Shown here: one piece after another, positions 7,655 through 50,010 of the stretch | Position numbering within the stretch: position 1 is the stretch's first letter | How the letters are laid out: the number at the start of each line of letters is the position of its first letter | NCBI GenBank assembly: GCA_903813345.2 | Contig: CAIIXF020000006.1 | Location: 33,145,524-33,209,523 of the forward strand | Length of the DNA: 64,000 nucleotides | From: Owenia fusiformis | Taxonomy: Eukaryota; Annelida; Polychaeta; Sabellida; Oweniidae | Direction of reading: 5' to 3' | Notes under the pieces: generated by a model | The model's database searches: none | The model's input: the letters and a program-made list of their open reading frames with translations, nothing else | What the model was told of the DNA's origin: nothing | Made by a program: the position numbers and the translations under genes

Positions 7655-7703
7655 ATTAAGGAAGCATCAACAGAACAATATGAGCATGTTACTAAGGATC
7701 AGG
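7655..7703 (+). CDS. LIMA1-like: Micro-exon (49 bases)
   Basis: Acceptor ttctttgtag|ATT at 7653-7654, donor CAGG|GTGAGT at 7704. Phase 0 in, phase 1 out. It encodes IKEASTEQYEHVTKDQ plus the first base of a Glu codon completed by the next exon. It is too short to recognise alone; the evidence is the good splice sites and the exact phase fit on both sides. Confidence 0.7.
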
Positions 7704-16263: not shown

Positions 16264-16385
16264 GGAGGAGACAGCATGTGTAAGGTTTGTGGTAAAAGGG
16301 TCTATGAGATGGAGAAGCAGATAGCAGACAAAGCAATCTACCACAAGTCTTGTTTCCGCTGCAACCATTGCCACAGGGTGTTGGG
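16264..16385 (+). CDS. LIMA1-like: Exon: LIM domain, first zinc module
   Basis: 122 bases, phase 0 in, phase 2 out. Acceptor tgtttatctag|GGA, donor TTGGG|GTAAGC. It encodes GGDSMCKVCGKRVYEMEKQ and onward to HRVLG, giving C6-x2-C9-x17-H27-x2-C30 (first zinc site) and then C33-x2-C36, the first half of the second site. Spacing is canonical for LIM. The V-Y-x-M-E sequence after the second Cys matches EPLIN-class LIM domains. LIM domains are protein-interaction zinc modules; in this class they act in actin-associated scaffolds. Confidence 0.95.
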
Positions 16386-17463: not shown

Positions 17464-17537
17464 ACTGGGAAACTATGCCTCATTGGAAGGACAACTTTTC
17501 TGCAAGCCTCACTTTATTGAAATCTTCAAGTCGAAAG
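17464..17537 (+). CDS. LIMA1-like: Exon: LIM domain, second zinc module
   Basis: 74 bases, phase 2 in, phase 1 out. Acceptor ctctattttcag|ACT, donor AAAG|GTATGC. It encodes [20 protein letters not shown] and onward to FKSK. C54 and H57 (CKPH, numbered from the exon at 16264) complete the second zinc site with x17 from C36, so the domain is complete: C-x2-C-x17-H-x2-C-x2-C-x2-C-x17-C-x2-H. GNYASL..x..FCKPHF followed by FKSKGNY is the EPLIN-family signature. Confidence 0.95.
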
Positions 17538-18075
17538 GTATGCTGCTTTTGATATAGATAAGCAAAGAATAGTAAATGTGTCCTACTTTGCAGTTTGTTC
17601 CTGCATTAAGGACTTAATGTTCTCATAGACATGTATAAGATATTTAAGCTTATATAATGTGCATTTTATGCGATATGATTTCTGGTGGTTTTACGCTTAT
17701 TAAGCTTAAGAAGCAGTGGAATTGTTATTTATATTGAATGATGCTTTTACTCTCATGATTTCAGGCAATTATTCCAATGAGGGATTCAGTAGGCAACTTT
17801 TTAGTAAATCTCTTGAAATGAAAAGTAGTACTAGAAGAATCAAGATACCCTCTGTAAATAAAAAAAATAGTGCATGGTCCTTTATCAGTCATAGCATTTT
17901 CAACATTCTGTTTAATTATAGTAAACTCTTAGAATTGTATAAACATGTTTAGTACAAGTGGCTTGAAACTTGAAATGAAGAAACAGGTTTATAAATGCAA
18001 CTTAATCGTAAGATTGAAAATTGATGCATATTGGTCAACTTTCACAATACAATTGTGTGATCATGCGTGTATCTG

Positions 18076-21362: not shown

Positions 21363-21455
21363 GTAATTATGACGAGGGGTTCGGTCGTGCTAAGCATTCA
21401 ACACACTGGGTAGAACCTTCTACTAATAAAGAGGATGTAGCAGATACGAAATCTG
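21363..21455 (+). CDS. LIMA1-like: Exon: EPLIN-type NYDEGFG extension after the LIM domain
   Basis: 93 bases, phase 1 to 1. Acceptor actaacaactaaag|GT, donor AAATCTG|GTGAGT. It encodes (G)NYDEGFGRAKHSTHWVEP then STNKEDVADTKS. NYDEGFG..xH...W directly after the LIM domain is the strongest single family marker in the window and is shared with vertebrate EPLIN. As a phase 1 to 1 exon it could be skipped in frame. Confidence 0.93.
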
Positions 21456-25243: not shown

Positions 25244-25300
25244 AAAATGTGCCCAAACCGCAAGCGCAGGAGGAAGAAGAGGGCAAGGTAGTCTTCCGTG
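25244..25300 (+). CDS. LIMA1-like: Exon: short acidic linker
   Basis: 57 bases, phase 1 to 1. Acceptor tgttgtcttgtag|AA, donor CCGTG|GTAAGT. It encodes (E)NVPKPQAQEEEEGKVVFR. It is the last shared exon before the 21.8-kb intron that contains the alternative first exons. Its phase 1 donor fits the exon at 47119 (giving VVFR-A-EDKVEED). Confidence 0.85.
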
Positions 25301-25770
25301 GTAAGTAGCTATTGAAATACTCTGTTTTCTTTATGTTAAGGCTCCATCCTTTTCACTGATCTCAACCGCATAAACATGAAGACACTTTCACATAATGGTG
25401 GCATTTAGGTTGGTAACCAAACTCTCTCAGAACTGAATCTGTTATTGAATGGTCATGGAACCATAGATGTAGCTAGAAACATTGACCGGAAAGATGAAGT
25501 CAATCTCTCTATTGATGTACTCCAAGTTCAAAGGTTATAAGTCATAACCATTTGCATGAATATGCATGCGCAAAATTAACCCATTTTGTAACCAAGGCGT
25601 AACAAAATTGCCAAGTTGATAACCTGAAAAATCGACATTTATGATTTAGTCACTGTCAAGTGTGATGTCGTTAACCTTAGGACACAACTTTTTGGAGGTT
25701 GCAACTGGCGAAACAAGCACAGCCTATATAACATCATACTCATATTCATTTCATAGATATCACTGCAAGT

Positions 25771-26218
25771 TAGTGTTGTCGCGATGTGCCATAATCGTAC
25801 ATCGATGCATCGGCAATTTTCAGTAGTAAACATCGATGCACATCGCGATGTACATCGAGAAAAAGTCCAAGAAAAGTGCACTGAAATACCGAACGCTAAT
25901 GCACTAAAATACCGAACATCTGGTACATCCGGGAACTTCTAGAAAGGTGAAATGAAAGTAAAGTAATTCTTTTAGATTAATGGTTCATTACGAATAGCTA
26001 AAACAGTTTTAAAGCGAAAGAATATCAGAAAACATTGGAAAATGAAATAAGACATGAGAAAGGTAAGCGATTTGCGTGAAAATAAGATAAGAAAGGGTGA
26101 TTTTTAGCAAATTAATTTTTTTCAAAAACATCGATGTTTTGTTTCAGACATCGATGCATCGCCAGAATCAGCTTTGGCGATGTATATCGCGATGTATCGA
26201 TTAATCGCGACAACACTA
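25771..26218. mobile_element. hAT-type MITE with perfect 8-bp target duplication
   Basis: 448 bp. Ends TAGTGTTGTCGCGAT... and ...ATCGCGACAACACTA, with further inverted CATCGATGCATCG / CGATGCATCG blocks inside. CTGCAAGT is present directly on both sides (25763-25770 and 26219-26226); 8-bp duplications are diagnostic of the hAT superfamily. No transposase. A spurious 80-codon minus-strand ORF overlaps the left end. Confidence 0.9.
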
Positions 26219-26916
26219 CTGCAAGTACATCATATATCATCAAATAATTGATCAAACTACTGTCAATCTGGAGCTTATAGAGAGTATGTCCATTATGTTA
26301 GTCTTTTTGTTAATATGAGATTCTATGATGGTCTGATTTTATTCAAGGATTTTAGTGCTGATTTAGGGTAATTCTTTTTGTAATTAAAAATAGATACCAT
26401 TTTTATTACATGATGAAAATCAATTTTGTTGATAATTTTCTCACAAGTCCTCTTCTATTTAGATTGGGATTTGCAGTATCTTAGAATTGCAGTTTAGTTT
26501 GAAATAGAGTTAACCAACTAAAATCAACACAACATGATGCTGCTGACACTTTGTATTGACAGACTGGGTTTCAAAAATAAGCTGTTAGCATAAACACTTT
26601 CAAGTTTTATCAGTTCAGCTTTTTCAAATGAAGTGGCTTTTGGAGTGACATAATTGTGTTCCTATATTGATCCCTGAGAGAATACTTCACTTTTGATTGC
26701 AGATTAAACAAAAAGTGAGTTGACATTATAACTGGTGTAACTTTCATGTTGATATCACATTGGATGATATTAATGATTTGTCAGTTTCTAAAAAATAGGA
26801 CTGAAATACAATTTGCGTTTTGAAGTAAATATAAACATACATGGATTCAGACAATCTGATTAAGCTGATTGTTGTAAAATATCTCTAGATTCTGATTTGG
26901 AATTATTTTATTGACA

Positions 26917-27019
26917 ATGAAGACGCAGGAGATAGATGTGCTGGTTCCTGATAGGACCCAGAATGCCGTGTTGAAGATCTATATATGTGAACATGATCTC
27001 ATTGCAGTCAAGGTCAATA
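26917..27019 (+). CDS. Candidate alternative first exon (34 codons, phase 1 out)
   Basis: ATG at 26917 (acaATGA), preceded by an in-frame TGA at 26893. The frame stays open to donor GTCAATA|GTAAGT at 27020 and ends in phase 1, matching the acceptor of 47119 (Asn codon, then A+CT = Thr, then EDKVEED). It encodes MKTQEIDVLVPDRTQNAVLK and IYICEHDLIAVKVN. As an internal exon it would need an acceptor in phase 1, and the only candidate has no pyrimidine tract, so a first exon is preferred. Its VLVPDR is similar to IILPDR in the candidate at 32936. No domain recognised. Confidence 0.5.
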
Positions 27020-30000
27020 GTAAGTTTGTCAGCTCACAAGACTGCCTTAAATATCAATTAAATGTAATTCTTCAAAATATATTTGTATGGGATATTCGAT
27101 ATAATCAGATTTCATAACATGGTCATTGCATGGCAGGCAATAATACAAGAGACTAGTTCAAGAGAAACAATTAGCCTTCCATAAAAACAATATGGCAGGG
27201 GCCCCGGAATCAACTGGATCGATTTATTTTTTAGAATCAATGCGGGATGCTGGTAGAATTACTGTTAGTTATCCTAATGAATGGATTCCATAAGGAATAT
27301 AGACTGCCATCTATCCTTATTTTTCATATATTCCATGTATTTTGGTCCAACTCCCAGGGATCATGAACATGTATGACGTCATTGAATTTGCATAATACAA
27401 GCAGATTACAACATAGGTCAAAATGAAAAATTCAGGTAATGCTCTTTATATATGACTGTCATATAAATGTATATTATTTAGTGATTATCTCTTCAATTAA
27501 TATTTGGTATATATAACCTATTGATATTATACTAAAACACATTTCAATTTTCTCAGTGAATAGTTAATGTCTAAACTTATTTCGCAAGTGACCTCCGTCA
27601 TTTAAAATGCCTGGGAGAAATAGTGTTTCCAATTTCAGCATACATATGATAGCAGTATATAAACTGACCATATGTCAGCTGTATGTTTAATATTACAAAC
27701 TCTAATAATAGTAAAATTGTTTCAAATTATTGTATTGTATTGGTTGGAACACATATGATTTAGAGAACAATGTGCACATAAGCAAATGAAGATATAAGAA
27801 TGAAGTTTCTACAAACACCAACCTTAACCAATTTAATATATACCAGTATAATAGATACATGAAATAAAGATTTACATTTTCAAATCATCATTAAATAAAC
27901 TAAAATAAGGAAGTATGAATTGGATTATACTTAAGCAGTAGTAGATAAGTAGATCTTTTTTTTTTAAACTTAAGGAATCAATGAGCTTTCAGAAGGGGCA
28001 TTATTTCAGAAGCATTAGGGCTAACTTTGCAATGTGTGTATATCAGGTGAGGTATATGAAGCCTATCAAATACCAGTGAATATCCAAGTATGGGCTTACA
28101 AGAGAAAAGAAAAACTCTTGAAAGCCCATGTAATGGTCTAAGTCATGTAATGAAACAAAGATAATATACCTGTAAACTTAAAGACTTACACATATGGCAT
28201 TACCTGATGTCACTACAAGTGTTGTGTTTTCAGCTGTAAGTTCATAATTTCTTGATGACTTATATGATAATAACTACTTGTAAAACTTAATGTTATCCAC
28301 CAAATAATGTTTGAGTTGGGATATAGAGATGTCCATGTCATATATCTGTATGTACATCTGCCTATTCATAGTTCCTTCCAAAGCTCTAAGTTCAAATTTT
28401 TGATGTTTATCGTTTAAATTATTAAAAAAAAGTTTGACTGTAGGCGTTCTTCATACACAAAGTCAATAAAAGGTTTCAACAGTTCATCATGAAATTTTGA
28501 CTAAAAGCAGTATTTTTCTTGAAAAAGATAATTTGGTAACATATCACTGTGTGCATGGTATGGAGGACAACTAGATTGAAAGAAAGATCAGTAATTCGAT
28601 ATGGACAGATTGTCTACATGGAAAGTATCTAATATCTACTCTTTGTATCTAGAAGAGACTATAATCTCAAGAGATTAACAATATTGTGCTTGATACAAAT
28701 CCTTTGATTGAGATAAATATGAGATTAAATGAGTTTAATACATAGATAGAAACATATGCCATAATGGACCTGAAACCTAGAAATAAACACAGGTATACTA
28801 AACAGAACTCTTATTTAATGACCCTAATAGTCAACATAAACCAGACCTACAGCAATTTAAAAAATTCAGAATTAAATAAGTGAGTCATGAATAAATGCTG
28901 GGTGTAAATATTCATAAATGACAGTTAGATAAGAACTACTTAACTTTACTGTATACTGCCAACTACAGTGTTGTATTGCTGTATTTGCAAGTTGTTTATC
29001 AACAAAATTCAGTTATGAAAATGACACATTAAACAAACTATAAAAGATGAAACAACTAGTATCTAGAATTGCTAGTAAATTGAACATAAATTATGAACAT
29101 AAAATCAAAGAAACAAATGGATTACAGATAACAAATTATATAATTAAGCAACAAAACATACCATTAGCTTAGTTTTAAAGTAGCTGTACTATAATGGCAT
29201 AGATACAATCAGCTCAGAAATCTTTTTTTCTTTTTGCCTTACAATAGACTCTCAAGGGAATGTTATATTAGGAGATATTAGGGAAGGTGGAATTATATCA
29301 AGATGTAAAATTCAAATGAACTTAATCAGAGTAAAAAGAGATTGATCAATAGCAAAAATAAAAGATATGGAAGTATCAAGCGTGATGATATAATATAAGA
29401 TGCAATAGGAAATGTTGATATCTTACATCTCTGGTGAAAGGATTTACATTGTATATATGACTAAAGGGGAAGCCATGGAAGCCATACTTGCACCCCTGTA
29501 ATTTCACTTGCTTTTAATACATCTACAGTTTCGTATGTTTTTCTCTTAGTTCATTTAAGTTGTGTTTGGAGTTTTTGGGAGGTTAGTTATAAATAAATAA
29601 TAACTTATTGAGACATACATGTAATATTATATAATGTTATAAAGTGAACTTCAACTGCTCCAAACACAAGCTTATGTTGTGTTCATTGTATCTAATTTAA
29701 ATAAAAGGCGAAAGGGGAAGCCATGGAAGCTTAGTTTGTAAACATTTATTCACTTACTATAATACATTATTCAGACTGAACTGAATATCATTAAATTCTC
29801 TATGATTCACATGTGTCTGGGTAACTTTGGTGATCCATGCTTGTATATTATTGATCTGTGAGTACAACATTAATTTCTATGATATGTCACTGATATTCAT
29901 CTTTGAGCTGTTGACCTTGACCTTGATAAGGGTAAAAGGTCAGTGGTTCAATGTCAATGTTTTGTAAACATTCTGTTCTTTGAAACTGCTTTGTGCATGA

Positions 30001-30404
30001 ACAGAGGAAAAAGAGAAGGAAATAAGTAAAGTTAAAGGTTAGGTAAAAGTTACTGTTAATTTAGAGGATAAATAATAGCAATGGATTGGATAATTGAAAT
30101 AATCATTGTTGAATAATTTATGAAGCATCAGTGTTATATTAGCAGAGAGATTGGATGTGAATGTAAGCATATAACATATAGGACTATTACAATGCAAAGA
30201 TAGACAAGGTAGATGTTGTTAATGATGTTCATTATAGAAAAGTAGATGGAATTGATATTTCCTTATTTCATTTAGTATTTTATGATATAATCACTGATAA
30301 TATCTCAATATTAAATGTCACTTTGAACTAGATTGATGATAAAACTCTCAAATAAGCATAAAATAACAGACATAACTTGGATATCACTGTGAACTAACAT
30401 TAAT

Positions 30405-30485
30405 GAGGACTGCATACACTGTAAGGTATATGAGGACTATAATCACTGTAAGATATATGAGGACTACAATCACTATCTTAGGACT
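30405..30485. repeat. 27-bp tandem repeat, three copies, ending exactly at a candidate ATG
   Basis: Units 30405-30431, 30432-30458 and 30459-30485 each begin GAGGACT and contain ATCACTGTAAG-like sequence. The last unit is the most diverged. The next three bases are the ATG of the 30486 candidate exon, so the repeat would lie in its 5' leader. In that reading frame the repeat itself is open (YEDYNHCKI units). Confidence 0.85.
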
Positions 30486-30594
30486 ATGAGCCTTGGTGCA
30501 TCACCCAGGACCCCACCTTGGTACAAAGCTCTACATAATGTTCATTTCGAATATGCCTCTTTTACACCAGAAAATGGACATTCAAATGAAGTAG
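30486..30594 (+). CDS. Candidate alternative first exon (36 codons, phase 1 out)
   Basis: ATG at 30486 (ggactATGA); open to donor GAAGTAG|GTAAGT (full consensus) at 30595, phase 1, matching 47119 (G+CT = Ala). It encodes MSLGASPRTPPWYKALHNVH then FEYASFTPENGHSNEV. The segment is locally less AT-rich than its surroundings and has coding-like codon composition. A nearby acceptor (AG at 30480-30481) would require incoming phase 2, which the upstream exon does not supply, so a first exon is favoured. SPRTPP could be a proline-directed phosphorylation site. No domain recognised. Confidence 0.55.
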
Positions 30595-31120
30595 GTAAGT
30601 TGCATCAGTAATACATATAACAAGCAATCTTCAGTAACTTGTGTGATGTCATGAAATGTTATGAATCTATATCTTAATTATGTCTCTGTCTGTTAAAAAT
30701 TTAAGATAAGGTAAATATATTTGGCACAATAGACAATTGGAACCTTTTCCCTAAAATTGATGTTAATAAAATTACTCATCTAAAGTTGTAATCATGAAAA
30801 TTGTCAACCCTAAATCATCACATATTCATATACATAGGCTAATGGAAAATACCTGGTACGGTATGCTATATGTGGCATTATCCAAAGCATATACCTGGTT
30901 TTTCCAATTCAAATCATCTGTTCGTATAATTGAACGATTTGTGAATAATTAATGAAGCTTTCTACTGAAGCAATAATAATTCAAGCTTCATTGTTTTATT
31001 AGTGATATGCTCTTTGTGAAACCAGATGTTCAACTATATTCTTAGTTAGTTATTGACATAAAGATGGCAAGTAAGTAATCTCACTTATTGAGTTAGTAAG
31101 TTACTAAATCAGTGAGGTAC

Positions 31121-31960
31121 TTAAAGGCCCCATATAAAGTTTAAACCACTTTGGCTTATATTGTAGTCTTACCCAATGTTATCTAAGTGTGATATGTGAA
31201 ACTTTTTTTTTAAATTTCAAAAAGTGTTTTTTGATAGACTTTTGTTCCCAAATTTTCGAATTTATTTAAAACCAACTTTTAGAGGTCACTCATATCTTCT
31301 AATTAGCCATAATTCATACCAATGCATAGCATTCATCCTCCCATGTTTTTTACCGAAAAAATTAAGAAAATCGGTTCATAAATAAGTGAGAAATGAACTT
31401 ATCAGTGCATGAGAATGGTTCTGAGAAAAATACATTTCAAAATTTTAGTTCTCATAGAAACCAATGGTACAATGATATCTAAAACATAATTTATTCTTCC
31501 TTTTAACCTGGTTAGAAAATCAACATTGGTTTTTTATGAAAGTCTAGCATATTTAGAAAAGATTGACATCGAAAAAAAAATTTCAATTTTTTTCAAAAAG
31601 TTTTTGCTACCTTAGTGACATCACTAATGTTTCAAAATATTTTTGATATGCTAAAACATTGAAGTGGCCCATTAAATATGGCATTTTATTATTGAAATAG
31701 TGTGTCCTTTGTTCAATCTTTGCATTGGTGTTAAAAAGATAATCTTTTTTGAAATGCATTAAGAAATATTTGATGATTAAGAAATTTCAATTTTTTTTAA
31801 AAACTGGCGGGAAATTTGAATATTTGAGAAACGAAATGCTCACAACTTTTTTTTCAAAAAATCTTTTTTGTTCAAAAATCTCTAAAATCACTTTTTAAGT
31901 TCTGACAAATAGTAAATGAATGATAAAAAAATATTTTCAAACTTTAGACGGGGACTTTAA
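31121..31960. mobile_element. MITE with TTAA target site and diverged terminal repeats
   Basis: Starts TTAA-AGGCCCCATATAAAGTTTAAA and ends TTTCAAACTTTAGACGGGGACT-TTAA. About 20 of 26 terminal bases are complementary. It shares TTAAAGG ends with the element at 8831-9437. The interior is AT-rich with no transposase. Family (piggyBac-like) is inferred from TTAA only. Confidence 0.65.
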
Positions 31961-32935
31961 GGTATATAGTTAGCTCAAGTAAAGTTTTGATTTGAATTGC
32001 ACATTAAGTTACTAAATTAGTTAGCTAACATCTGTGAATATAACTGCCACATTAACCAATTGATTTGCATAACTTTAACTTGTCATTTTGAAGGCAAAAA
32101 TATTGAAATAGAGTGACTGGCTTCGATAAAATCAAATCAAAAGCTTTGATTTGACTTAGATTTTGACCTTGACCCTAAAAATGATTTTCTTTTAATTTAT
32201 TTAAGTAAATACATACCTAAAGCAATAATTGAATGAGGAATAAAGAAAAGCTAATAAAGCTATCAGAGGTATATTCAGAGGGCCTCCTAATAACTTCAAT
32301 GTAAATCTGGGCAATGTCTGTGTTGTTCATACAAATATCATGATGGTAAAGATGTCTCTCTAAAACATCACTTGGCTATCAGTTAATGTGGTTTTACTCC
32401 AGTAGTTCTAAAATTACTTTATGATAAAATCAATATTATGTTATATTTAAATATTCATCACATAGTTAAGACAACAAAGTTGGCACATTTTTTGATAAAA
32501 GCTATAATTCGAAAAGTAGTCGGCGATTTTGTTAATATTTAATATGTGAATAATTAGAAGATTTCTCATTTAGTTGGTATGAAAACTTTTCTGTTACTTT
32601 TTATATGTGATCTAAGCAAAACAATAATAGGTGACATCAAGCTGGTCCATATTGTTAAAATAACAACATCTATGTTCACAATGTTATTCAAGTTAACATC
32701 TTTCCATTATGAAACTATGGCTTTTGTCAAGTAGAGCAATGTATGTAATATATGATAGAAGCGTAAGATCTATGTTTAAATGTGTTTTGTCACTAGGACA
32801 AGACAATAACTGTCTCAGCTCATACTTCATTGTTCAAAGTCCTTGATTGATTGTTCAACTTAAAACATAGCTGCTTCACAATCTAACCCTGATTGATAAG
32901 GCGCAAAACATAACTTAGGCTCATTAACAATTAAA

Positions 32936-33014
32936 ATGTCAAGAAAAATCAGTAATAATTTAGTTACAGTGGAGATTATTTTACCTGATAGAATTCGCAG
33001 GAGTACAATACCTG
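32936..33014 (+). CDS. Candidate alternative exon (first exon, or 96-bp cassette exon from 32919)
   Basis: ATG at 32936 (taaaATGT); open to donor ATACCTG|GTAAGT (full consensus) at 33015, phase 1, matching 47119. It encodes MSRKISNNLVTVEIILPDRI then RRSTIPG. A second reading is possible: an acceptor at AG 32917-32918 would make a 96-base phase 1 to 1 cassette exon (32919-33014) in the same frame, joined after 25300. That acceptor lacks a pyrimidine tract, so I prefer a first exon. IILPDR resembles VLVPDR of the candidate at 26917. Confidence 0.5.
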
Positions 33015-35696
33015 GTAAGTTACCTTGGTTATCTTACAATATTGTTTATTGTATATTGTACTGAAAATATTGTTTATAATACACACCAAAAGCTCTGTAT
33101 AGGTTAAGTAGCTCTTCAAATATTCTACATTTATCATATGTATTGTTATACTTCCTTATAATGCAAAATATGCATTGATTGAAGACCTTGTCGGGTCTAC
33201 CTTTGATAAATATTGCATGGTCATATTGCAAATAAATTTTATTGTTACAGTAGTTAAAACATACCAATATCATATATGACCCTCTTCACTGATTTACAAG
33301 TTCAATCTTGAGCCTCCTTTTTGGAACAGTTCTTTGAATTTCCTGTTTGTAGATTTGACACTCTTCACTTCTTATATGTTTGCCCAGAATATCAAATCTT
33401 GTAAGATGGTCATAATTTTATGGTTCTATTATTTAATTATGGTTGATATCAGGCATATTTGTTGGTTACTGATGGGAGGATATATGGGAATTTATTTTGC
33501 TTTGTAACACCCCCCCCCCCCCATTGTTGTAGCCCAAGATAATCATAATTTTTTGTACTTGAAGGAATTGTAATACAAAAGGTTTGTAAAATATGCCTAC
33601 TTAATTTAAAATAATTACTTTTTTCATAAAAATATAATATTTGATTTTCTGAAATACTGGTTGACAGATTTAGATTTCAAAATAGCTTGCATCTTCAAGA
33701 AAAATGTAACTTTTATTATATAAATATTCTGGATTGAATTTTTCCATACATTACAGGCTAATGTCTGGTGAAAATAGGGCCTCGATGGAGAAGGAAACCC
33801 AATACATGTTTTGCTGCTTAATTGAAATGGCTTCCATTGTTCAGAAGAACTCCCAAAAATATTATCCACATTTTTAAGCCTTATATAGCTGAAGCATCTG
33901 GGAAAGACCTCTACTCAAGAAGTTTGATTCCTTGTGTCATCACTGTCAATGACTCATCTAAACAATAACGCAGATGCGAGTAGGTAGTTCCCAGTTTCAC
34001 CATCAGGTGGCTCGTTTGGGTCAGATAGCATGGCGGGTATAGTAGAAAGTTCCCTTTAACTTAAATAACATCTGTTTTAGTGGTTCAATTTTCATATAAC
34101 CCTTATGTATCTAATAGTTATGCAAATCAAAATATGTCCAGTAAATGAAAATGTTATCTGACCAATAAAAGAAAAAATATTTCACTTTTTGTGATTTTGT
34201 AACATGGGCTCTATGGAGAATCAACCCGAACTAGAAGTCACACTTTCAAGATAATTAAATTTTCAAACTTGATAAACAATTTTCGAAACCATATTTGTAG
34301 ATGTACTTTAACATGTAGATTTCAAATATAACATCGCTTTGACTGAATTTCGAATATTTAATGGTGTAAATCAAGATTTTTTCTACTCGCATCTAGTCTA
34401 TTCTGTATTAACTGCTGCTGTTGTTGTTGGACCTGAGGGTGATAAAGATACATGTACAACTATGTATACTGACAACATTTACTCTTATACTTCTATATAA
34501 ACTTGTTAATGCTGGGAAACCTCCATGAAGAGCTCTTATCTGTATTCTGATACCCTTCATATCTCATCTCAAAGTGAGATCTCCTCAATGGAAAAGGGAG
34601 CAGAGTTCTCCTTATCACCTGGCAGGCCTGGGAAATTGAGCCATGTTTTCAAGTTTGTATTGTCTGATAGATGTTGCAAATGTTCTACCTGACTGTACAT
34701 CAAAACAGTTGTGTGAGTCTTCACACATGAGGTAAAGCGAGGTGTTAACTCTCAGTTTTCTTTTCTAGAATGTTCCCTTATGTTTTGTTCTTATTATGGA
34801 GAAAGATGTTCAATTTACTACATGCCATGGAAAACCTCCCTCAAATACAATGTAAAATTCTGATCATGTATCAATCAGATTGTGAATTTGGAAATTCTAA
34901 TTTGGATTTCAATAATCATACCAATGTTTTTTCAACCCTGGTTCGCCCTATTCAAATTGTGTGCTTGATAACATGTTACTTGCAGAACCAACCATCATGG
35001 TCTGGGAATAAAACTTGAATGGATAAGTCAGGGAATGGGTCAGGATATCACGGGGTGGGATTGTCTAATTTTGGGAAGATCCCAGTGTCCTTCTTATCTA
35101 TTACCTATAGAGAAAACGAAAAAGAAATCCATGTAATGACTTATACATATCTTAAAGTGGTGTTAATGCATGTACATGTACTTGCTAGCTACCTCAGCTA
35201 TTTTGATTTGTGTCGCATTTTCTCATATTGAAATACTAGAAATTGTTCATGAAATTTCACCTTCATTTGACTCACACTATTGCTTGGCGGAGATGCTTCT
35301 GATGAGCAATGGTGTAAAACAGCAGTTTAAGAAGTTGGTTTATGAGAAATTCCTGTATAATGAGCTCTGCTTTTACCTGGCTGGATGTGGTTTGAGATTC
35401 CTGTGTTAACTCTTAACATTTGCTCTATCTTGCCTCTGTGGGTTGCTACAGCCTCAGTTTATCTTAAGAATTTATATTTTATCTTGGAGGAAAATATTTG
35501 TGCAACATAGAGAGTTTTAATGGGAGAAAATCCATATCTCCATAGATAATTTCTTCAAGTGAAACACATCAAGTAATCCAGGTGGTTATAAGTAAATAAT
35601 CTTCATACATTTACATAAACTTCCCAATTAATGAATCTTTTTTAAGAAACTGTAGAATGTGTGAACTCACATACAAGGTTCTCATTAAATATATTG

Positions 35697-35912
35697 TGTG
35701 ATCACTAATATTGAGTATATTGAATGACCTCTATGTTTTGTTATCTCACATCTTGAATGATATTTATGTTATGTACTCTTTATATTGAGTGAACTATGTA
35801 CAATATGATCTCAAATATTAAGTGATCTAAACATTGAGTGATCTCTGTATTATGTGATCTCTATATGAGTGATCTTTATATTGTGGGATCATCATAATGA
35901 GTGATCTGATAC
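35697..35912. repeat. Degenerate short repeat of ATTGAGTGATCT
   Basis: About ten imperfect occurrences of a motif like (AT)TGAGTGATCTCTAT over about 215 bases, with variable spacing. It looks like an old, decayed minisatellite. Confidence 0.55.
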
Positions 35913-35943
35913 ATGAAGTTTATGTTGTTTCACTGAAATGATT

Positions 35944-35975
35944 CCCCCCTTGACTGAAAGCTAGCTACGCCCCTG
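35944..35975. mobile_element. Terminal fragment of a hAT-like element
   Basis: CCCCCTTGACTGAAAGCTAGCTACGCCCCTG resembles the usual right terminus of many animal hAT elements (GCTAGCTACGCCCCTG). No matching left end was found nearby. Confidence 0.4.
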
Positions 35976-36801
35976 TTCATACAGTGATCAATTTTAGGCA
36001 TTTATTCTGGGAATATTTAATCACACAAGAACGTAATCTATTGAGATATTTAGATGAATTTTCACTCTGGTGACATGAATCTTGTCATTTAAATTCCTGA
36101 TCAAATGTACTTTAAATCATGACATTTTATCATGTCTTAAAGAAAGATAACTTTTTCATTTTATCATGTCTCAAACTGAGATTACTTTTCCACTGTACAT
36201 ATACATGTAGATACAAGACCACCCCATGAAGTCGTTTTCTATTATGAGCTTATGTACAATTATATATGTTATATATCCATCAATTACCATCACATTTCTG
36301 AACAGCATGTAAGGTTACCATGCATACCAGCCTCTTGCCATTTCATTATTCATAACTTGGGGATGAAAATAGAAAAATATCAACATGTTTATTTAGTAAC
36401 ATATAACAACTTGATGAGCAACCCTCACATACAGTAAGAAATCGTAACGGAATTACAAGTGGGACTCATTTTCTCCAAATTTCATCTAATCGTGACTTAC
36501 AATAAGAGAAATTGTGGAAGGAAGCGAATTCCGGAATATAAAGCTATATGTAGCAGTTGTTTTGTGTTTCTTAAGACCTTCAGTGCTGACATAATAGGTT
36601 CAGGTAAAATATCACCTCTCAACTCAACTCTGTTGTGATAACAGATTTAGAAAAAGTAGATAAGTATAGAAGATAATACAAAGTTGGGATCACCAAGTCA
36701 ACCAGAGAGGGTTTAATAATCATCTGGTGTTAATAAGCTGAGATCTGTGAATTGGTTATCTCATACAGCTGCCTTGCAAGCAGGCCTCTCAGTTACTCAC
36801 T

Positions 36802-39757
36802 ATGTGTAGTAGCATCTTACCACGGATATATTTAGATCCAATAGATGAGACATCAGAGGAAGAGAGTTTGGAGAGTGACTCAGACCACTCAGATACTTTA
36901 AATCAGAACTTGCACTCAGAGCAAGAACAATTTGAGATCATAACTAATGGTGATAATCTAGGTGCTGGCAGAAGACGACGCTCATCATCTTTTAATAATA
37001 TAGATATGGAAAATCTAACCGAATCAGGACATAGTGAAAATGTGAAAAGTAATAATCAGAATTCTGATACACAGGATGACACGGGTGATTTGTTGAATGG
37101 CATTGTCAATGCAGCAATGGAAGCTATAGATAAAGAGGATATTAAAGCAGAGAATAAAAATATGGCTGATACTGAAATGCGACCTGATGAGGACATGCCC
37201 CCTCCACCACCAGAACAGAATTTACCAGATTTGCCACTGGAGGAAATACCCCCAGCAGTCCCTGAAGAGATTTTGTCACCAGTTTCGCCAAATGAGGACA
37301 TTCAACCAATTGAATTACAAGATGAGGAGCTCCCCCCTCCCCCTACCCCGATAAAAGATATCTCTTCTCCTTTTAGCCAGACAGAGGATACGCCCCAACC
37401 TTTAGAAGAAGAGCTACCACCCCCCTACTGCGATGATCTAGCTTCTCCCACAGCAAAACAGGATGACCCTCCTCCATTTGATGAAAATGTAGCACTCCCT
37501 AACACAAACAAGGAAACAGAAGCAGAAGCGGAAACATCTTTACTGTCTGATATTGTGAGCACAGCACTTGATGTCCTAGATAAGCAGGATGACATTGCTT
37601 TGGCAGAAGCAGCCTTACCAGTTGATATACCAAAAACACCAGATGAAGTGCCAGAAACACCAGTGAATGTTCCAGAAACACCAGCTGAAGTGCCAGAAAC
37701 ACCAGTTGATGTACCAGAAACACCAGATGAAGTGTCAGAAAGACCAGATGAAGTGATAGAAACACCAGTTGATGTACCAGAAACACCAAATGAAGTGCCA
37801 GAAACACCAGTTGATGTACCAGAAACACCAGATGAAGTGATAGAAACACCAGTTGAAGTGATAGAAACCCCAGTTGATGTACCAGAAACATCAGCTGAAT
37901 TGCCAGAAACACCAGTTGATGTACCAGAAACACCAGCTGAAGTGCCAGAAACACCAGTTGATGTACCAGAAACAACAGGTGAAGTGCCAGAAACACCAGT
38001 TGATGTACCAGAAACAACAGATGACGTGCCAGAAACACCAGCTGAAGTGATAGAAACACCAGTTGATGTACCAGAAACACCAGCTGAAGTACCAGAAACA
38101 CCAGTTGATGTACCACGATCACCAGATGAAGGGCCAGAAACACCAGCTGAAGTGATAAAAACACCGGTTGATGTACCACAAACACCAGATGAAGTGCCAG
38201 AAACACCAGCTGAAGTGATAGAAACACCAGTTGATATATTAGAAACATCAGCTGAAGTGCCAGAAACACCAGTTGTTATGTCAGAAACACCAGCTGAAGT
38301 GATAAAAACACCAGTTGATGTATCAAAAACACCAGATGAAGTGCCAGTAACACTAGTTGAGGTGCCAGAAACACCAACTGATACATTCAAAGAGAATCCT
38401 GAAACACCATATGTAAAAATTGAAACCCATGTTGATTCTCCAAGGGAGGGTGACATTTTTGAAAAATCATCAGAAATCCTTGATAAACCTGAAGGAAATG
38501 TCACCTTGAGAAGCCCCAGCATGAGAATGCAGCCACGCCCTCTCTCTGATGTTTTTGAAGCACCTCCACCATCAAAGATAATTGCCCAACCAAAAAAAGT
38601 GAATGAACCTATCTCTAAACCAGACACTCTTAATGTAAATTCCAATGCTGATGAGTCAGGGATAGAACTGCATAGCCCTGTATCTGTAAAGGTCAAGCAG
38701 TATGGGGAAAGCGAGGCAGTAAACAACCAGCCTTCTAATCTCAATAGCACAGCTAAGTTAGGAATATCTCAATCAGAGCAGCTATTTTCAGGCAATACAC
38801 CAAGTATTTCTTCTACAAGCACAATGTCAGGAAATTTGACAAAAACAGTTATTAGTCAATCTTCATCAAGGAGAGTTTCATCCACATCTTCGTCAACTGT
38901 TATTGGAAGTGATGGAGTCATGGAAACAAAAGTCCAAGAATCAAAATTGGAGAAAAAAGCAGCAAGTGAATCTGAAACTAAGTCTAGTGGAGGTATTAGT
39001 TTAACATCAAAAACCTCATCCAGTTCTGAAAAACAGTCAGATTCAGAGTGTGTCAAAGATGGACAGGGACGTGTTATTTCTAGTTCAAAGTCAGAGTCAT
39101 TTGTAAAGTCAGGGGGTCCTACGGAGATCCCAATAATCAAATCAGATCCCCAAGCAGCAGCAGTGCAGTTGTCTAGTGCAAAGTCTACTGAACAGTCAGA
39201 CATTAATCTCCACAGTGCCCCAGGTCATAGCCCTACAACTCTTACCACCGTCACACCACACAGTGTCACATCACAAGCTGTCACACCACAGAGTGTCATG
39301 GCACAAGCTGTCACACCACAGAGTGTCCCATCACAAGCTGTCACACCCCAGAGTATCACGGCACAAGCTGTCACATCACAAGCTGTCACATCACAGAATG
39401 TCACATCACTTAGTCTGACATCACAGAATGCTACTTCAGAAAAGAATCTTGTTTCACAAAATATCACACCACAAAGTGTAACTAGTCAAAATGTTGCAGT
39501 TGAAAGTAATGTCACTCAACAGAACATTATCTCCCCAAATGTCACATCACAGAATGTCACATCACAGAATGTCACGTTACAAAATGGGACAGAGACAAAC
39601 TATGAAAATAAGCAAAATGCTGCTGCAATGCAAAATGTGGCTATTACTTCTCAAAATATTTCGACTAAAGAAGATAAGAATACATTGAACATTGAGAAAA
39701 GGGATGCTTTTAATGCAGAAGTTGACTCATCTAAGATTTTACCAGATGATCTGTCAA
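36802..39757 (+). CDS. Large alternative first exon (985 codons): acidic N-terminus, VPETPxx heptads, SQ-VT repeats
   Basis: ATG at 36802 (ctcactATGT), open for 2956 bases to donor CTGTCAA|GTGAGT at 39758. Phase 1 out matches 47119 (A+CT = Thr, then EDKVEED). It cannot be an ordinary internal exon after 25300: the nearest acceptor, AG at 36774-36775, would read into a stop in incoming phase 1. Layout: MCSSILPRIYLDPIDETSEE and an acidic Ser/Asp stretch (1-40); RRRRSSSF (about 56); Pro-rich runs (PPPPPEQ about 134, PPPPTP about 178, and PPPY, a WW-binding PPxY motif, about 207); 36 tandem heptads of consensus V-[PI]-E-T-P-x-[DE] (nt 37627-38382); a Ser/Thr-rich region; then SQAVTPQSVT and SQNVT repeats (nt about 39250-39590). 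No folded domain recognised; probably disordered. Spliced to the shared exons it gives a 1731-residue protein without LIM domain. The minus-strand 441-codon ORF is a by-product of the 21-base periodicity. Confidence 0.8.
37627..38382 (+). repeat. 36 tandem 21-bp coding repeats (VPETPxx heptads)
   Basis: 36 consecutive units of 7 codons, 756 bases with no length change. Consensus V-P-E-T-P-[VAD]-[DE]; units tend to alternate VPETPVD with VPETPAE/DE, so the DNA also shows a 42-base higher-order period. Degenerate variants (VSERPDE, VPRSPDE, ILETSAE, VPVTLVE) are mostly in the second half. Strict maintenance of the frame supports coding selection. T-P in each unit could be a proline-directed kinase site. 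Confidence 0.95.
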
Positions 39758-40938
39758 GTGAGTATCTTTTTTAAAGTTCATAATTTATAGAATTTCGCAG
39801 TTGAGGTTGCTTGTATAGGTACACAGAACTGTAAATTGTGATATATTTAGAATTGATTCATGCCTGTGTATGACGTACCTTAGTTTGAGATAGAGAGTCT
39901 AAGATAACATCAGGTTTCACCAGATGTTATGTTGTCTGTTTAGAAAGAGATAAGGTGAAGTGAGGAACACCATGGCCTGATTTAACTCAGGGAAAATGCC
40001 AGGCTCTATACTTCTTCCAGTGTATTCTATCTGGAAAACATTAGAAACAGCTAAAACTTCATCTTTAAGTTAGAGAAAGTTAAGTGTAATATGCCTAAAT
40101 TGCTAAAGCAACATCTATATCTTTTCAAGAAGTTTTATATTTCTCATACATTATGATTAATGCCCCCCCCCCCCAAAAAAAAAAATTGAAAAGTTAGTTC
40201 CAAGACTAGAACAAAAGTATATGGGTAAAGAAGCATTTACCCCTTCAGTCATCAAAAATATTGACCATTGTAGTTAAATGGCATTTATTGATGTTTTGAA
40301 TGGATCCCTTAATGCTGAAAGGATACTGGTCTAGACACAGTAATAGAAGATTGCTTCAGAAGCCACAGGAATAGAATCTTGATTTACACATACCACCTGG
40401 CTTATTTCTTAGAAGTTACTTTCTCATTTTGTATGTTTTGTCCTGCTATAATGTGCACCTTTGACTACATACTAGATTGCATAATTTTCCTGTTATAATG
40501 TGCTCATCCATCTCACTATATTTGTAATTATTGTGTAGTTTTGATTTTCTGAGGATTATTTAGGAATCACTGCTTCTCTCAGTACATGGCTATTAAGAAC
40601 ATGGAGAAATGACCAAATATTGAAGAATTATGAGAAAACAATCAATCTTTAAAAATGAAGTAAGTGATAATAGAGAACCTTGTTGCATAGCTAGATCTTT
40701 TAAGCTCCCGTCTGCCACTTCATTTGAAGAAATGTGTTTTTGTATCGTTTTCTGATTTAAACATCAGAAATCTAGAATGGCCACCCAATGTTCTAATGTT
40801 GGAATTTGCATTAATAATTTGAGATCCCTTCAAAGTATATATGGCTATATTATACTCCAATGGCGTCAAATTTCAATAATTTGAGATATTTTTAAAGCAT
40901 GGCTATGTTATAATTTGCTATGCTATAATTTGTTAATT

Positions 40939-41333
40939 ATCCCATCGAACGAAATCGAACGAAGTTCGGAGGGATATAGGGAACGCCTCCGTCCGTCCGT
41001 CCGTACGTACGTACGTCCGTCCGTCCGTCCGTCCGTCCGTCCGTCCGGGCAATAACTCAAATACCCTGGCCCGATTTTATTCATATTTTGTACACATATA
41101 CCCCATGGGGGTAGAAGTTCTGCTCGAAAGCCAATTTTCAAAATGGCCGCTCATTTAAAAATTTTAACGTATTTTACTATAACTCGAAAAGTAGTAGAGC
41201 GATTTTGTTCATATTTGGTATGTGAATATTATAAGCATGGCACACTGTCTAATGACACTTTTGGTAGAAGGTGCCCCTTTTGAAAAATGTTCGATGGGAT
41301 TCGCTACGCTTTGGCGTTGCCGTTGTTCTGGTT
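40939..41333. repeat. Dispersed repeat, TCCG-microsatellite family, young copy
   Basis: Starts ATCCCATCGAACGAA, then GGGATATAGGGAACGCC, a (TCCG/TACG)n tract, GGGCAATAACTCAAATACC, CAAAATGGCCGCTCATTTAA, and ends TTCGATGGGATTCGCTACGC TTTGGCGTTGCCGTTGTTCTGGTT. A second young copy is at 56153-56724; diverged copies lie at 56908-57633 and 58804-59361. Termini are partly inverted (CCCATCGAACGAA / TTCGATGGG). Family not identified. Confidence 0.8.
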
Positions 41334-43149
41334 GGGATTTGCTATTAGAGTTTCCATTTTCTAGTTGAATAGCTTGCTTCAGACATTATCCTTTGGTGCC
41401 ACTTTTAACCCCATGTTGTTTACCATTCAACATTCTCTCAAGATAAACACATACTATCAACAACATTTTTAGAATTTTAGACTCTGAAATTGCCAAAGCC
41501 TTTCACATATTGAAAGATATATCTATTTAACATGTAATATTCCAAGTTTGCTAAGATTTCAGACACCAGAGAAAGTTGCTAGTTGCTTTCAAAAAGCTGC
41601 ACCGGGGTTATGCAAAAGTTAGAATATAAAAACATTGCAAAAAACTGTGCTAAAATTCAAGGAGTTCTAGCAAATACACATCTTGATTCACAAGGTCTCA
41701 GTTACTCCAACTTTACCTTGATATTTTTAGTACAATTTCATTGGGTGAGCAAACAAACAAAATGCTAATAATACTCTCAATTTCACTGAGTCCTTTATGA
41801 TTAAACTAGGAAAACATCAATTCAATAGCTTCTTGTGATAGAAACCTCATTAGGGATTTGATAGAAACTTTATTAGGGATTACTCCACAGAGGGCCCTAG
41901 TGAAAAGGTAGAAGGCGCTAGTGAAAAAGTAGAAGACAAAAAATCTAAATTTAAAATTGTGATGATGGTTGATTGAAATCAAGATTTATCAGTGCAATCA
42001 CCAGTGAAAATGTACAGATTTTATATACTTTATTTTGTTTATCTTGTGGGTATATAATTTTACAAAAAGTATGACGAAATGATTCGGTTCACTTCAAATA
42101 TTTGACTTTTTGGTGATGGTGGTCTTGAGTTTGAAATCTATTGAAAATTGTTTAAAATTCAGAAAGATGGTAGAAAAAGTGGGCATATCTTTTTTTCAAT
42201 GTGTGATCTATGCAAGTTTTCTTTTGATTTGAAAGGGGACATAAAGGTATCCTGTGGTATATGGGGTTATATATTTCTTTTATTGACAATTGTATCAAAA
42301 CATGACATATTAGTCTAGGGTTATGTACCAAAAATCCTTGTTTTTTCATAATCAATCCAAAGATTTCAATGTTTTCCCATTGGATTGCATTAGAGCATTT
42401 GTCTGTGGAATTGTCCCTTAAGGGCCATTAAATTATCATTTATAAGTGTGAATGCTAGTGAAACAAATATTTGGACACTTTTAATTGGTTCTTGGAACAT
42501 CTTCCCAGATGACACACCACACAGTAAGAGGACAGAAAAATAAATATGCATCCAAGGTGTGTTTATAGCCACCTTGGAAGTCAACAATAACAAATACACA
42601 CTAGGTTAAGGGTAACAAGGCATTAACATGCAAAATGTCACCACCTATCATTTGTTACAGATGCTATTTCATATTCAGATTGTTAAGCCTTTAAACAAGT
42701 TCCATGCTCCCTAAATTGAAAGATACATTATTTCATTTTCACGAGAAGGAAAGTTTTAATCAATTTATTTCAAAAAGGTAGATTTGAGTGATGCAACTGT
42801 GAAATTTAGATAAATATGAACTACAAAACTGGCGTAAGATGCTGTAAGTTGCGCTGTTTTGCAAAAGTTGCACCTGGCAATGAAATTTGTGGGAAGTTGT
42901 TGCGCGTGCAGCCATACAACTTTGAATGGTATCTGAGATATTTCCAAGGCTGATACCTTTTGATAAGGTCAAAATTTGCTTTTAAAATTGTAATGTATAT
43001 GATTGTACTGTAAGTAATTATCAAATGTTGATGATGGGCATCTGAAAACTGGTCATCATTCTATTAAATGACAGTTTTATTATTGCCTGATATTAGTAAT
43101 GTCATGAGAAGCCATGACCTTCATATAGTTAAATCAATAACTGACCATG

Positions 43150-44941
43150 GCCAAACTGCCCTAATTCAGGTCACCATACTAGTCAATGGGCAAAAGGGCA
43201 AACGCCTGACTTTTTATCTCGAGTTATGGATTTATGTGGCCTCACTGGCCTATCTGAGGTTCTAAAGCTATGTCTAAGCTACATTTTGACACTAAACTCA
43301 ATAGGGGCCAACCATCTACTTTTTGAAATAATTGGTCAATTGTGACACTACCCCCTCTCTCTGCCGACACAAATTGAAATTCACAAAAATGAAGGCAAAA
43401 TTAATACGCCAGTTGACTCGAAAATTTCCTTCAGATAACCCAAATAAACGCATTTTCAGAAGAAATGGCATGTTGTCATTGCAAAAAGATGACAACTGTG
43501 CCTACATACTAGATTACTGACTCGGCATGATCACAATTGTGTTGGGACTACATTTATTTTTGAATACTACTTTTTTCTATTCAGCGGAAGTGACGTATTA
43601 GGGCATTTGGGCCTAATAGCAACATGGTTGGGTGATTTCTGGCTTGAAATTGCGTTTTTCCAATTTACTAGAGTTTTTCAGGTACTTTTGTGCAATTCAA
43701 GAATATTCTGACAGCAATTATGAAAAATATGGCTACTTTATTACCCCTGGGGTCATTTTCCCAAGAACCCAATGGTTTTCCTTTAAATTTGACTAGTTTT
43801 CCATTTACATCATGAAATCTACTACCTGATGGTGACATTTTACAATGTTGTGTCAAGAAATTGAGTATTTAATTGCATATTGCGATTCTTAGCCAAAATC
43901 ACTGAACCGTGAACCAGGAAAATTGGGCAAATTTGGCCTACTTAGGCAAAATTTTACTAAAATTATCATTCTTTTGATATTTTATTCCATTCAACAACCT
44001 CCTGATTTGAAAAATGATGACAAATTTGATCAGATTTGACTCTGGCCTGGAGAATTGGGACTTTTGAGATAGTTTTAGCTCGAATTTGGTCATTCAGAGT
44101 GGACAAATACATCAAAAATTGACACTTAACTGACCAATCTCTGACCGTACCCCTGATATGTACCTTCATTCTTTACTAAAAACCATAAGATGGAAAATTC
44201 AATCTTTATTATGAACAGCAACTCATTGGCTTGCCCATTTACGACAACATATGACATCTTGGGGTCATACAGGACGAAATTGTGGCCAAATATCGTCAAA
44301 ATCAGTGGTTTTTAGGGTTAAAAGCGAAAACTGCTTATTCAGCAAAAACTTTAAATTTGTTCAAGAAAATTCCCCTTTTTGCCCCGTCCAGAATATGTTT
44401 CATACTAATAAACTTCAATTCTTGGCGATTCTGAGTAGTTTTAAAAAAATTTTGGTCACTCTCACATGTGACTAATAGGCCAAACTGCCCTAATTCAGGT
44501 CACCATACTAGTCAATGGGCAAAAGGGCAAACGCCTGACTTTTTATCTCGAGTTATGGATTTATGTGGCCTCACTGGCCTATCTGAGGTTCTAAAGCTAT
44601 GTCTAAGCTACATTTTGACACTAAACTCAATAGGGGCCAACCATCTACTTTTTGAAATAATTGGTCAATTGTGACACTACCCCCTCTCTCTGCCGACACA
44701 AATTGAAATTCACAAAAATGAAGGCAAAATTTATACGCCAGTTGACTCGAAAATTTCCTTCAGATAACCCAAATAAACGCATTTTCAGAAGAAATGGCAT
44801 GTTGTCATTGCAAAAAGATGACAACTGTGCCTACATACTAGATTACTGACTCGGCATGATCACAATTGTGTTGGGACTACATTTATTTTTGAATACTACT
44901 TTTTTCTATTCAGCGGAAGTGACGTATTAGGGCATTTGGGC
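43150..44941. mobile_element. LTR-like element: two 463-bp direct repeats around an 866-bp non-coding core
   Basis: 43150-43612 and 44479-44941 are the same length and nearly identical (I see one difference, TTAATACGCC vs TTTATACGCC). CCATG occurs immediately outside both ends (43145-43149, 44942-44946), a plausible 5-bp target duplication. Each long repeat is bounded by its own inverted ends (GCCAAACTGCCCTAAT / ATTAGGGCATTTGGGC). The core has no gag or pol frame and no clear polypurine tract. A non-autonomous LTR retrotransposon (TRIM-like) fits best; a composite of two MITEs is less likely because the inner flanks do not duplicate. A 62-codon ORF repeats in both long repeats and is not thought to be coding. 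Confidence 0.65.
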
Positions 44942-45063
44942 CCATGAGTAACAGCCTTGATTCATCAAGGACTGAAGGAATACATTGGTTTAAAAGTACT
45001 AGTATATGTATGAATTGTAGTATCATCCTTCTTCAAAGGACTCCATTCATGCTTAATTCATAT

Positions 45064-45222
45064 AATATGAGGTTATATAATGGTTCATTCTGTATATCGT
45101 GTTTATACTCAAGTGAGTATATGATATATTCACAAGTGAGCGTAGCGAACGAGTGAATATATTATATCTCACGAGAGTATAAAATGCACGATATACAGAA
45201 TGAATCATTATATAATCTTATT
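45064..45222. repeat. Long hairpin with 70-bp arms
   Basis: 45064-45133 and 45153-45222 are near-complementary (GTTATATAATGGTTCATTCTGTATATCGTG / CACGATATACAGAATGAATCATTATATAATC in two blocks, plus GTGAATATATTATATCTCAC). The loop contains GAGCGTAGCGAACGA. It abuts the inverted-repeat element at 45225. Confidence 0.75.
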
Positions 45223-45224
45223 AT

Positions 45225-46236
45225 GCCACTCTAAGTTCAACTACAGTTGATTCGAACACAATCATAACGATTAAAAACCATAAAAATATCCCATAGCCAA
45301 CTCAATAATGCCGATGTTGATCTCGAACCATTTATGACGTCACTTGATTCTAGGAAATCATGCCGGAACCCATAGATCCCGGCCAGATTCTTTTGTAGCA
45401 GGATCAGTAGCTCAATAATATTTCCTCAAGATGAGACACTTCAGAAAAATTCAAATTTTAAAATGACGATTCTGGAGCATTTCTGAAAAATATGAGACAA
45501 ATCATACCTCATTCGAAGGGTCTTGTTATTCTTTACCTTTTTTATCACCAATGGCCGTTATTCAAGCAATACTGCGTTGATAAGAGGCCAAAACAGTGAT
45601 ATTTTATCGCCGGACTCTTGTCTGTCCAAATCTGAATGTTGCTCCCGTGGTTCCAGAAATGTGACGTCATCATTACAATGATATTTGGACACACAAGAGT
45701 CCGGATTTCGTGAAAAATATTCGCCGTATTGAAAGTCAAATAACTGCATCCATAGGTTATTTACTCGAACCAAACAAGTAGAAATAGAAAGATGAAGATC
45801 TCAGCTATAAAATAAGTGCAAAATCTGTCACGGGGAAACAGGTACTATTTTGTATAAGGAACGTTTTGAAAGGTGGTCACTTTTTTTCGAAATTTTCCAA
45901 TTCAGTGTCGTATCTTCTGTATTATTCTTTGAGCCTATGATCCTACTACAAAACGATCTGGCCAACATCTGTGCCGGAACCATTTAAGACGTCACTTGAT
46001 TCTAGGAAATCATGAAAATTTTGGAGCGTCGGAACTCCCTCATTCGAGGGACAGTCTGTGTAACAAAACATACACGTTGTTCTTCGCTCTATATTCATTA
46101 GTTCCCAGAATGCACTTCTACAGTGGTATACGCTGGAGTGTATACGGTGGAGTATATACGATGACGATATACCACTCTCCACTATATATCATTGTTATAG
46201 ACCCAAGTTATACAACTGTAATTTGACTTAGAGTGG
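45225..46236. mobile_element. Inverted-repeat element of about 1 kb with nested palindromes
   Basis: GCCACTCTAAGTTCAACTAC at the left is complementary to the right end (TTGACTTAGAGTGG) with about three mismatches in 25. Inside, GACGTCACTTGATTCTAGGA occurs twice in direct orientation (about 45338 and 45990), and GCCGGACTCTTGTCTGTCC (about 45611) is inverted at about 45690 (GGACACACAAGAGTCCGG). Several short ORFs on both strands are by-products. Class not identified. Confidence 0.55.
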
Positions 46237-46320
46237 TATAAAATACTATATACCCTTGCTGCAAGGATTTCATGGTATGGGATTTCATTAATTTCTAGGA
46301 TTTATCAGTTACATCCGAGT

Positions 46321-46376
46321 CAGTAGCCATCAGACATCAACACCCACTCAGTAGCCATCAGACATCAACACCCACT
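46321..46376. repeat. 28-bp tandem duplication, identical copies
   Basis: CAGTAGCCATCAGACATCAA plus CACCCACT occurs twice back to back without a mismatch. Confidence 0.9.
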
Positions 46377-47118
46377 CTTGCCTCTGGTTTTCCAACTGTT
46401 GAGACTTAGTTGAATTCTAAGTTGGAAATTACCATAGAGTAAAAGTCCGTACTTTATTTTCTAATTAAAATTTGTAAGATATTTAGCTCTCTGCCAAAAA
46501 CTCTTTGAGGCAAGATCAGAATTCATGTAAGTCAAAAACTATGATATCATCGCCAATTACCAGTCATGATGATGTATTCACATGTGAGGTCATAACGTAA
46601 TATTCTGTGGTAAATGACTGTATATCACCTCAGTACATGGTACATGTAGGTAAGATGAATAAGCTGCCCATCTGGTAGACACAAATGAATACCTCATATA
46701 TTAGAACTCTCATAATGAGGAAGTTCTTATCTTAAGCCTTATGGCAGTTTATTTTTATCCCATGTTTACTACTCAGCAGATAACGTATTATCTTCTGCTA
46801 CCTACATACACTGAATACTTTTACCATGGTAACCTTCCATTACCATTTATTATGTCTTGTGGAAATCATCCTCACAATTATTTTCTTTCTCACTCATGTT
46901 CATCGTCAAACTTTATTAAAGGAACATTCCTCACTAACCTGTTATTGTCTTTACCTGATTGCTATAATCTATTGTAAACTATCAATACATGTCAAGAAAT
47001 TATGGTAAAGTGAAATTTTACCATTTAGAAATGTATTGTTTGTTTCAAGTGCTTTATTCACAAATTAATAAATTATCTTATTTTAGTAAAAATTGATTTT
47101 TTTGTTGTTCACTTTCAG

Positions 47119-47266
47119 CTGAGGACAAGGTTGAAGAAGATATCAGTTTTGCTGGCTTGAAAAACATTCGCTCAAGATTTGAGGATGAGAATGAAAAGGA
47201 GGGGTCCCCTCAGGCTCAAGATGCCGGTCGACGTGTTCCAGGGAAGCTGAAGCAACAGTGGGGAAG
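47119..47266 (+). CDS. LIMA1-like: Exon: shared C-terminal part, first KNIRSRF helix motif
   Basis: 148 bases, phase 1 in, phase 2 out. Strong acceptor gttgttcactttcag|CT; donor GGAAG|GTACGG. It encodes (A)EDKVEEDISFAGLKNIRSRF, EDENEKEGSPQAQDAGRRVP, GKLKQQWG. FAGLKNIRSRFEDEN follows the same helix pattern as the later ARNMAQRFRQME motifs, and KLKQQWG resembles the WK variant. All four phase 1 alternative exons and the LIM-containing path converge here, so it is the entry to the common C-terminus. Confidence 0.88.
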
Positions 47267-49901: not shown

Positions 49902-50010
49902 CACTGAGACGACTCCTGCAACTGCTGTGCAGCATGTCAATGGGCACTCCATAGAGAATGAACCAACCAAGAACACTAATGTTGTTAGGGAGACGGACAA
50001 AGTTGAGGAG
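49902..50010 (+). CDS. LIMA1-like: Exon: first ENEP/VVRETD module start
   Basis: 109 bases, phase 2 in, phase 0 out. Acceptor atttgttattctag|CAC, donor GTTGAGGAG|GTATGT. It encodes (S)TETTPATAVQHVNGHSIENE then PTKNTNVVRETDKVEE. ENEP...NVVRETD..EE is the start of the repeated module; the next exon begins APKVELGSLKSRYMAA, which supplies its helix part, so the module is split by the intron. Confidence 0.85.

Follow-up and report, generated by a model that had tools for sequence, protein, structure and literature searches.

Candidate alternative first exons between the LIM exons and the repeated tail of an EPLIN-class gene in Owenia fusiformis

Can a single EPLIN-class gene part its tail from its LIM domain by the choice of where a transcript starts? 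The question is raised by a locus of the annelid Owenia fusiformis, analysed here in a stretch of 64,000 nt (the window, whose positions are used throughout). A preliminary description of this DNA had proposed a ladder of alternative first exons inside one intron of 21.8 kb, all in the same splice phase and all joined to one shared exon.

Thirteen plus-strand exons within the window were joined into one open frame of 1442 codons followed by a stop codon:

1034-1768, + strand, exon 1 of the 13-exon frame
4105-4497, + strand, exon 2 of the 13-exon frame
7655-7703, + strand, exon 3 of the 13-exon frame
8263-8546, + strand, exon 4 of the 13-exon frame
11423-11704, + strand, exon 5 of the 13-exon frame
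16264-16385, + strand, exon 6, LIM exon (Pfam LIM and PDB EPLIN matches)
17464-17537, + strand, exon 7, LIM exon (frame, Pfam and PDB matches)
21363-21455, + strand, exon 8, with the EPLIN-type stretch GNYDEGFG after the LIM domain (alignment to human EPLIN)
25244-25300, + strand, exon 9, last exon ahead of the 21.8-kb intron (frame, splice sites)
47119-47266, + strand, exon 10, common acceptor exon, phase 1 in and phase 2 out, where the repeated tail begins
49902-50010, + strand, exon 11, tail exon (frame)
53677-55023, + strand, exon 12, tail exon with repeated modules (frame, pattern search)
62284-62919, + strand, exon 13, last coding exon (frame)

Exon 1 opens at an acceptor; the gene's own start is therefore either upstream of the window or part of an alternative exon. 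The 12 donors of the main frame scored from 5.3 to 11.0 bits. The donor of exon 5, GTTTGC, is weak (5.3 bits), and an internal GTAAGT at 11629 may give a second, shorter form of this exon.

A single LIM domain spans exons 6 and 7 (Pfam LIM, 1.3e-10, above the family cut-off). Among 35 PDB matches, the best was human EPLIN (2d8y, 2.2e-27), followed by LIMD2 (2lzu, 5.5e-26). In the PDB alignment, the FKSKGNYDEGFG stretch directly 3' of the LIM domain was identical to the human EPLIN chain. According to excerpts of PMC3305314, the EPLIN class is defined by a LIM domain followed by a motif of 22 residues, and the motif was recognised here on the FKSKGNYDEGFG stretch alone out of those 22. These sequence features place the gene in the EPLIN class: it has a single LIM domain and a tail of repeats, and the EPLIN-type assignment made in the preliminary description was borne out.

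From 47119 on, a pattern search of the tail returned eight starts of the form G-V/E-F/Y-E-N/S-x-P and four ends of the ARNLLAKWKSME type. By eye, about nine modules were distinguished, the first of them in exon 10. A PDB search returned no relative of exon 12, and its one Pfam match lay below the family cut-off. For the tail exon, no relative emerged from genome contigs, where 0 of 26 pattern matches were confirmed, or from viral contigs.

The intron ahead of exon 10 is 21,818 nt long and of phase 1, running from GTG/GTAAGT to TTCACTTTCAG/CTG (slashes mark splice sites). Four candidate first exons lie within it:

26917-27019, + strand, candidate first exon A1, phase 1 donor ATA/GTAAGT, beginning MKTQEIDVLVPDR...
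30486-30594, + strand, candidate first exon A2, phase 1 donor TAG/GTAAGT, beginning MSLGASPRTPPW...
32936-33014, + strand, candidate first exon A3, phase 1 donor CTG/GTAAGT, beginning MSRKISNNLVTVEIILPDR...
36802-39757, + strand, giant candidate first exon A4, 985 codons and one base, donor CAA/GTGAGT

All four segments (103, 109, 79 and 2956 nt) start with ATG, stay open and end at the GTAAGT or GTGAGT donors previously assigned to them. Each leaves one base, as the phase 1 acceptor at 47119 demands, and the frames joined to 47119 and the later exons stay open over 780, 782, 772 and 1731 residues, respectively. To this extent the proposed ladder was confirmed. The statement that most of its products lack the LIM domain was correct in placing that domain upstream (16264-17537) and too weak in its count, as all four products lack it.

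The intron contains 17 GTRAGT sites. With a minimum length of 75 nt, six ATG-open segments terminate at such a site, five in phase 1 and one in phase 2. Simulated introns yielded on average 0.36, 0.485 and 0.605 phase 1 segments at Markov orders 1, 2 and 3 (200 runs each), and at least four such segments occurred in 0, 0.5 and 0.5% of them. The fifth phase 1 segment, 44944-45112, was not counted among the candidates: it has C at -3, and 76.8% of chance segments score as high in codon usage. The phase 2 segment, 28764-28879, was rejected as chance on codon usage.

The candidates differed in the strength of their individual signals. A1 has a weak donor (5.7 bits), and its codon score was equalled by 1.5% of 194 chance segments, a set that includes the short candidates themselves. 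The donors of A2 and A3 scored 10.2 and 10.8 bits, with codon scores equalled by 4.6% and 7.7% of the chance segments; A2 has a rival donor 4 nt upstream, at 30590, in the wrong phase (phase 0). A4 has a donor of 9.0 bits and a codon log-odds of 452.9 bits, the periods of its internal tandem arrays are divisible by 3, and its 2956 nt compare with 353 nt for the longest chance segment in simulations. This segment is surely coding. Pfam gave no match in A1-A3 and just one match, below the cut-off, in A4; A1 joined to exon 10 had no PDB match.

Two further introns of the gene hold candidates of the same kind:

2909-3880, + strand, candidate first exon A0, donor TTG/GTAGGT of phase 0, matching the phase of its intron (1769-4104)
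48502-48611, + strand, candidate first exon A5, donor CAG/GTGAAT of phase 2, matching the phase of its intron (47267-49901)

A0 comprises 324 open codons, and its joined product of 1521 residues is open to the end and keeps the LIM domain. It contains a CPSCNQPLCTSC stretch, with a B-box family match below the cut-off (E 0.04), and has an acidic stretch in common with A4 (3 of 1000 shuffles as good). The codon score of A5 was equalled by 1.0% of chance segments, and its joined product of 733 residues, likewise open to the end, contains neither the LIM domain nor exon 10. All six candidates have A at -3.

The whole gene was then used as a control for chance. Under strict cut-offs (donor at least 5.5 bits, length at least 75 nt, A or G at -3, codon score at least -0.2), which were chosen after the scores had been seen, the 12 introns contained six candidates in the demanded phase, one and one in the two wrong phases, and 0 antisense in any phase. 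One of the wrong-phase candidates is A2 read through its second donor. Simulations under the same cut-offs gave means of 0.10, 0.18 and 0.18 and a maximum of 2 (120 runs at each of three Markov orders). With laxer cut-offs the excess in the demanded phase shrank, and with the laxest it was gone (33 in the demanded phase against 27 and 41 in the wrong phases; 81 antisense, all phases). Any test of this sort would admit A0 and A4 on account of their length, which leaves four short candidates among the six. In the intron scan, seven distinct segments lay above the codon-score cut, and for six of them at least one donor agrees with the phase of the surrounding intron; segment 21704-21780 lay above the cut in the wrong phase. 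Since the strict excess depends on cut-offs chosen post hoc and is lost at the laxest, the short candidate first exons are probably real, though unproven.

The reading that we favour, with a probability of roughly 0.65, is that the 21.8-kb intron holds several alternative first exons, placed between the LIM half and the tail and spliced to 47119, and that further candidates of this sort, at least two, occur elsewhere in the gene: an upstream one that retains the LIM domain and another downstream. A1 to A5 would each supply a start codon, presumably under a separate promoter, and would splice in phase to exon 10 or, for A5, to exon 11. Because the exons of the ladder lie after the LIM exons and ahead of the first tail module, their products would lack the LIM domain and carry different N-termini on the same tail. 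The N-termini would be short (26-36 residues) or giant (985 residues), and the predicted LIM-less products would comprise 780, 782, 772, 1731 and, from A5, 733 residues. By analogy with plectin, such N-termini may steer the tail to different places or actin structures.

Transcription, promoters and tissue use of these first exons are predictions. Within 600 nt upstream of the six candidates, one TATA-like site was found, at -541 of A4 (36802), and no CArG box. MEF2-like sites, a raw count, precede four of the six and were given no weight. Rfam and tRNA scans returned nothing.

The main competing account grants only A4, and perhaps A0, as a real alternative first exon and treats the three short segments as chance open stretches next to GTAAGT sites. 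Short length leaves little room for coding signal, the codon scores of A2 and A3 are slightly negative, the donor of A1 is weak, the fifth phase 1 segment at 44944-45112 resembles pure chance, and the lax scans show no excess. However, the demanded-phase excess under stricter filters came with 0 antisense candidates, and A0 and A5 fit two other introns of other phases. Furthermore, A1 and A3 have a common stretch (IDVLVPDR and VEIILPDR) that was matched by 3 of 1000 shuffles, this being one of 15 pairs tested. We consider this account unlikely, while giving it real weight.

Two other readings are far less probable. The frame at 36802 could be a separate, unspliced gene nested in the intron, and read unspliced it does end at a stop at 39772-39774, five codons past the donor. 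Against this stand the 9.0-bit donor at the end of the frame, in the very phase that the intron demands, and the same-phase pattern elsewhere in the gene, which make a nested gene very improbable. Equally improbable is that the segments are internal cassette exons of a long transcript rather than first exons. A simple acceptor test found eight same-phase acceptor-like sites in A4, all inside the frame from 37004 on, so that its 3' part could serve as a cassette, and the test misses two of 13 real acceptors. Nevertheless, no same-phase acceptor passed for A0, A1, A2, A3 or A5, and the start of A4 (36802-37084) itself has coding-like codon usage (0.13 bits per codon). In-frame stops also lie 21-93 nt upstream of all six ATGs (21 nt for A1, 93 nt for A2, 36 nt for A3, 51 nt for A4).

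The favoured reading, a first-exon ladder that follows the LIM exons, can be set beside several known systems, for which the publications are cited from excerpts. Human EPLIN (LIMA1), an actin-binding gene, has isoforms alpha and beta, both of which we take to retain the LIM domain. The gene is of the same class, and alternative promoters give rise to its two isoforms (PMC12053001); in contrast, the candidate ladder here, of four to five members, is placed 3' of the LIM exons. XIRP2, also of the EPLIN class, has a short form with the LIM domain and a long form with the exon 7 repeats that does not include it (PMC10259482). There, as proposed here, RNA processing parts the LIM domain from the product of a large exon, but by inclusion or skipping of exon 7 with a change of reading frame, whereas here separate starts would be used and the giant exon follows the LIM exons. 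In plectin, alternative first exons attach no fewer than nine short N-termini to a shared body, and these N-termini target the isoforms to different locations (PMC8466646). Its alternative first exons resemble those proposed here, but its actin-binding domain (exons 2-8) is encoded downstream of them and retained, whereas the LIM domain here would be left out. In dystrophin, the internal starts are spread along the gene; the protein is unrelated, and here four candidate starts lie in one intron. The internal promoters of dystrophin give N-terminally truncated isoforms (PMC1790709), and promoters downstream of a main domain are thus already known.

The preliminary description had also called the arrangement unusual and not known to be described for EPLIN-type genes. 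This holds only in part: alternative promoters of EPLIN (PMC12053001) and a LIM-less long XIRP2 (PMC10259482) are known from the excerpts cited, although in neither case do the alternatives form a ladder 3' of the LIM exons. Judged on titles and abstract starts with partial coverage, the literature yielded no description of a first-exon ladder after the LIM exons of an EPLIN-class gene. Titles and abstract starts of the mollusc, oyster and invertebrate EPLIN-LIMA1 literature and of that on molluscan alternative first exons likewise contained no such ladder.

If the ladder is real, promoter choice lets an invertebrate-type EPLIN gene uncouple its LIM domain from its tail. Together with XIRP2 splicing, as described in the excerpts of PMC10259482, this would amount to two routes to the same split and would point to separate use of the LIM domain as an ancient requirement of the class. 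The ladder would also provide a natural set of N-termini for asking what steers such tails in the cell.

A further element bears on how the LIM half might be made alone:

17765-17952, + strand, possible alternative last exon (E8') in the intron after exon 7, diverged copy of the exon 8 start

It has an acceptor at 17765 in phase 1, continues with GNYSNEGF... and reaches TAG at 17950-17952. When the 2656 AG-led readings of the window were ranked, only exon 8 itself scored above it (E8' 31, third place 25). If E8' is used, which is possible, the protein would end just past the LIM domain, and ladder and E8' together would allow separate production of the LIM half and the tail half. We tentatively entertain a bolder view, more doubtful than not, in which the locus is two genes in one: LIM proteins terminated by E8' and resembling LIMD2, and ladder-started LIM-less tail proteins with exchangeable N-termini, with only some transcripts joining the halves. 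Were this so, a single gene would make LIM domain and tail apart or together.

Several repeats were observed in the window. An array of a 96-bp unit occupies 22175-24609 (about 25 copies, 93% matches), with several open frames on both strands. Segments 43149-43618 and 44478-44947 are near-identical copies, 1329 nt apart with 4 mismatches in 470 nt, and probably represent a mobile or segmental repeat. Two TCCG microsatellites, at 40988-41047 and 56192-56263, lie by eye inside the same dispersed repeat. Exon 4 (8367-8441) and the giant exon A4 (37617-38381) both contain in-frame tandem arrays with a period of 21 nt or multiples of it, which encode seven-residue repeats rich in E, P and V.
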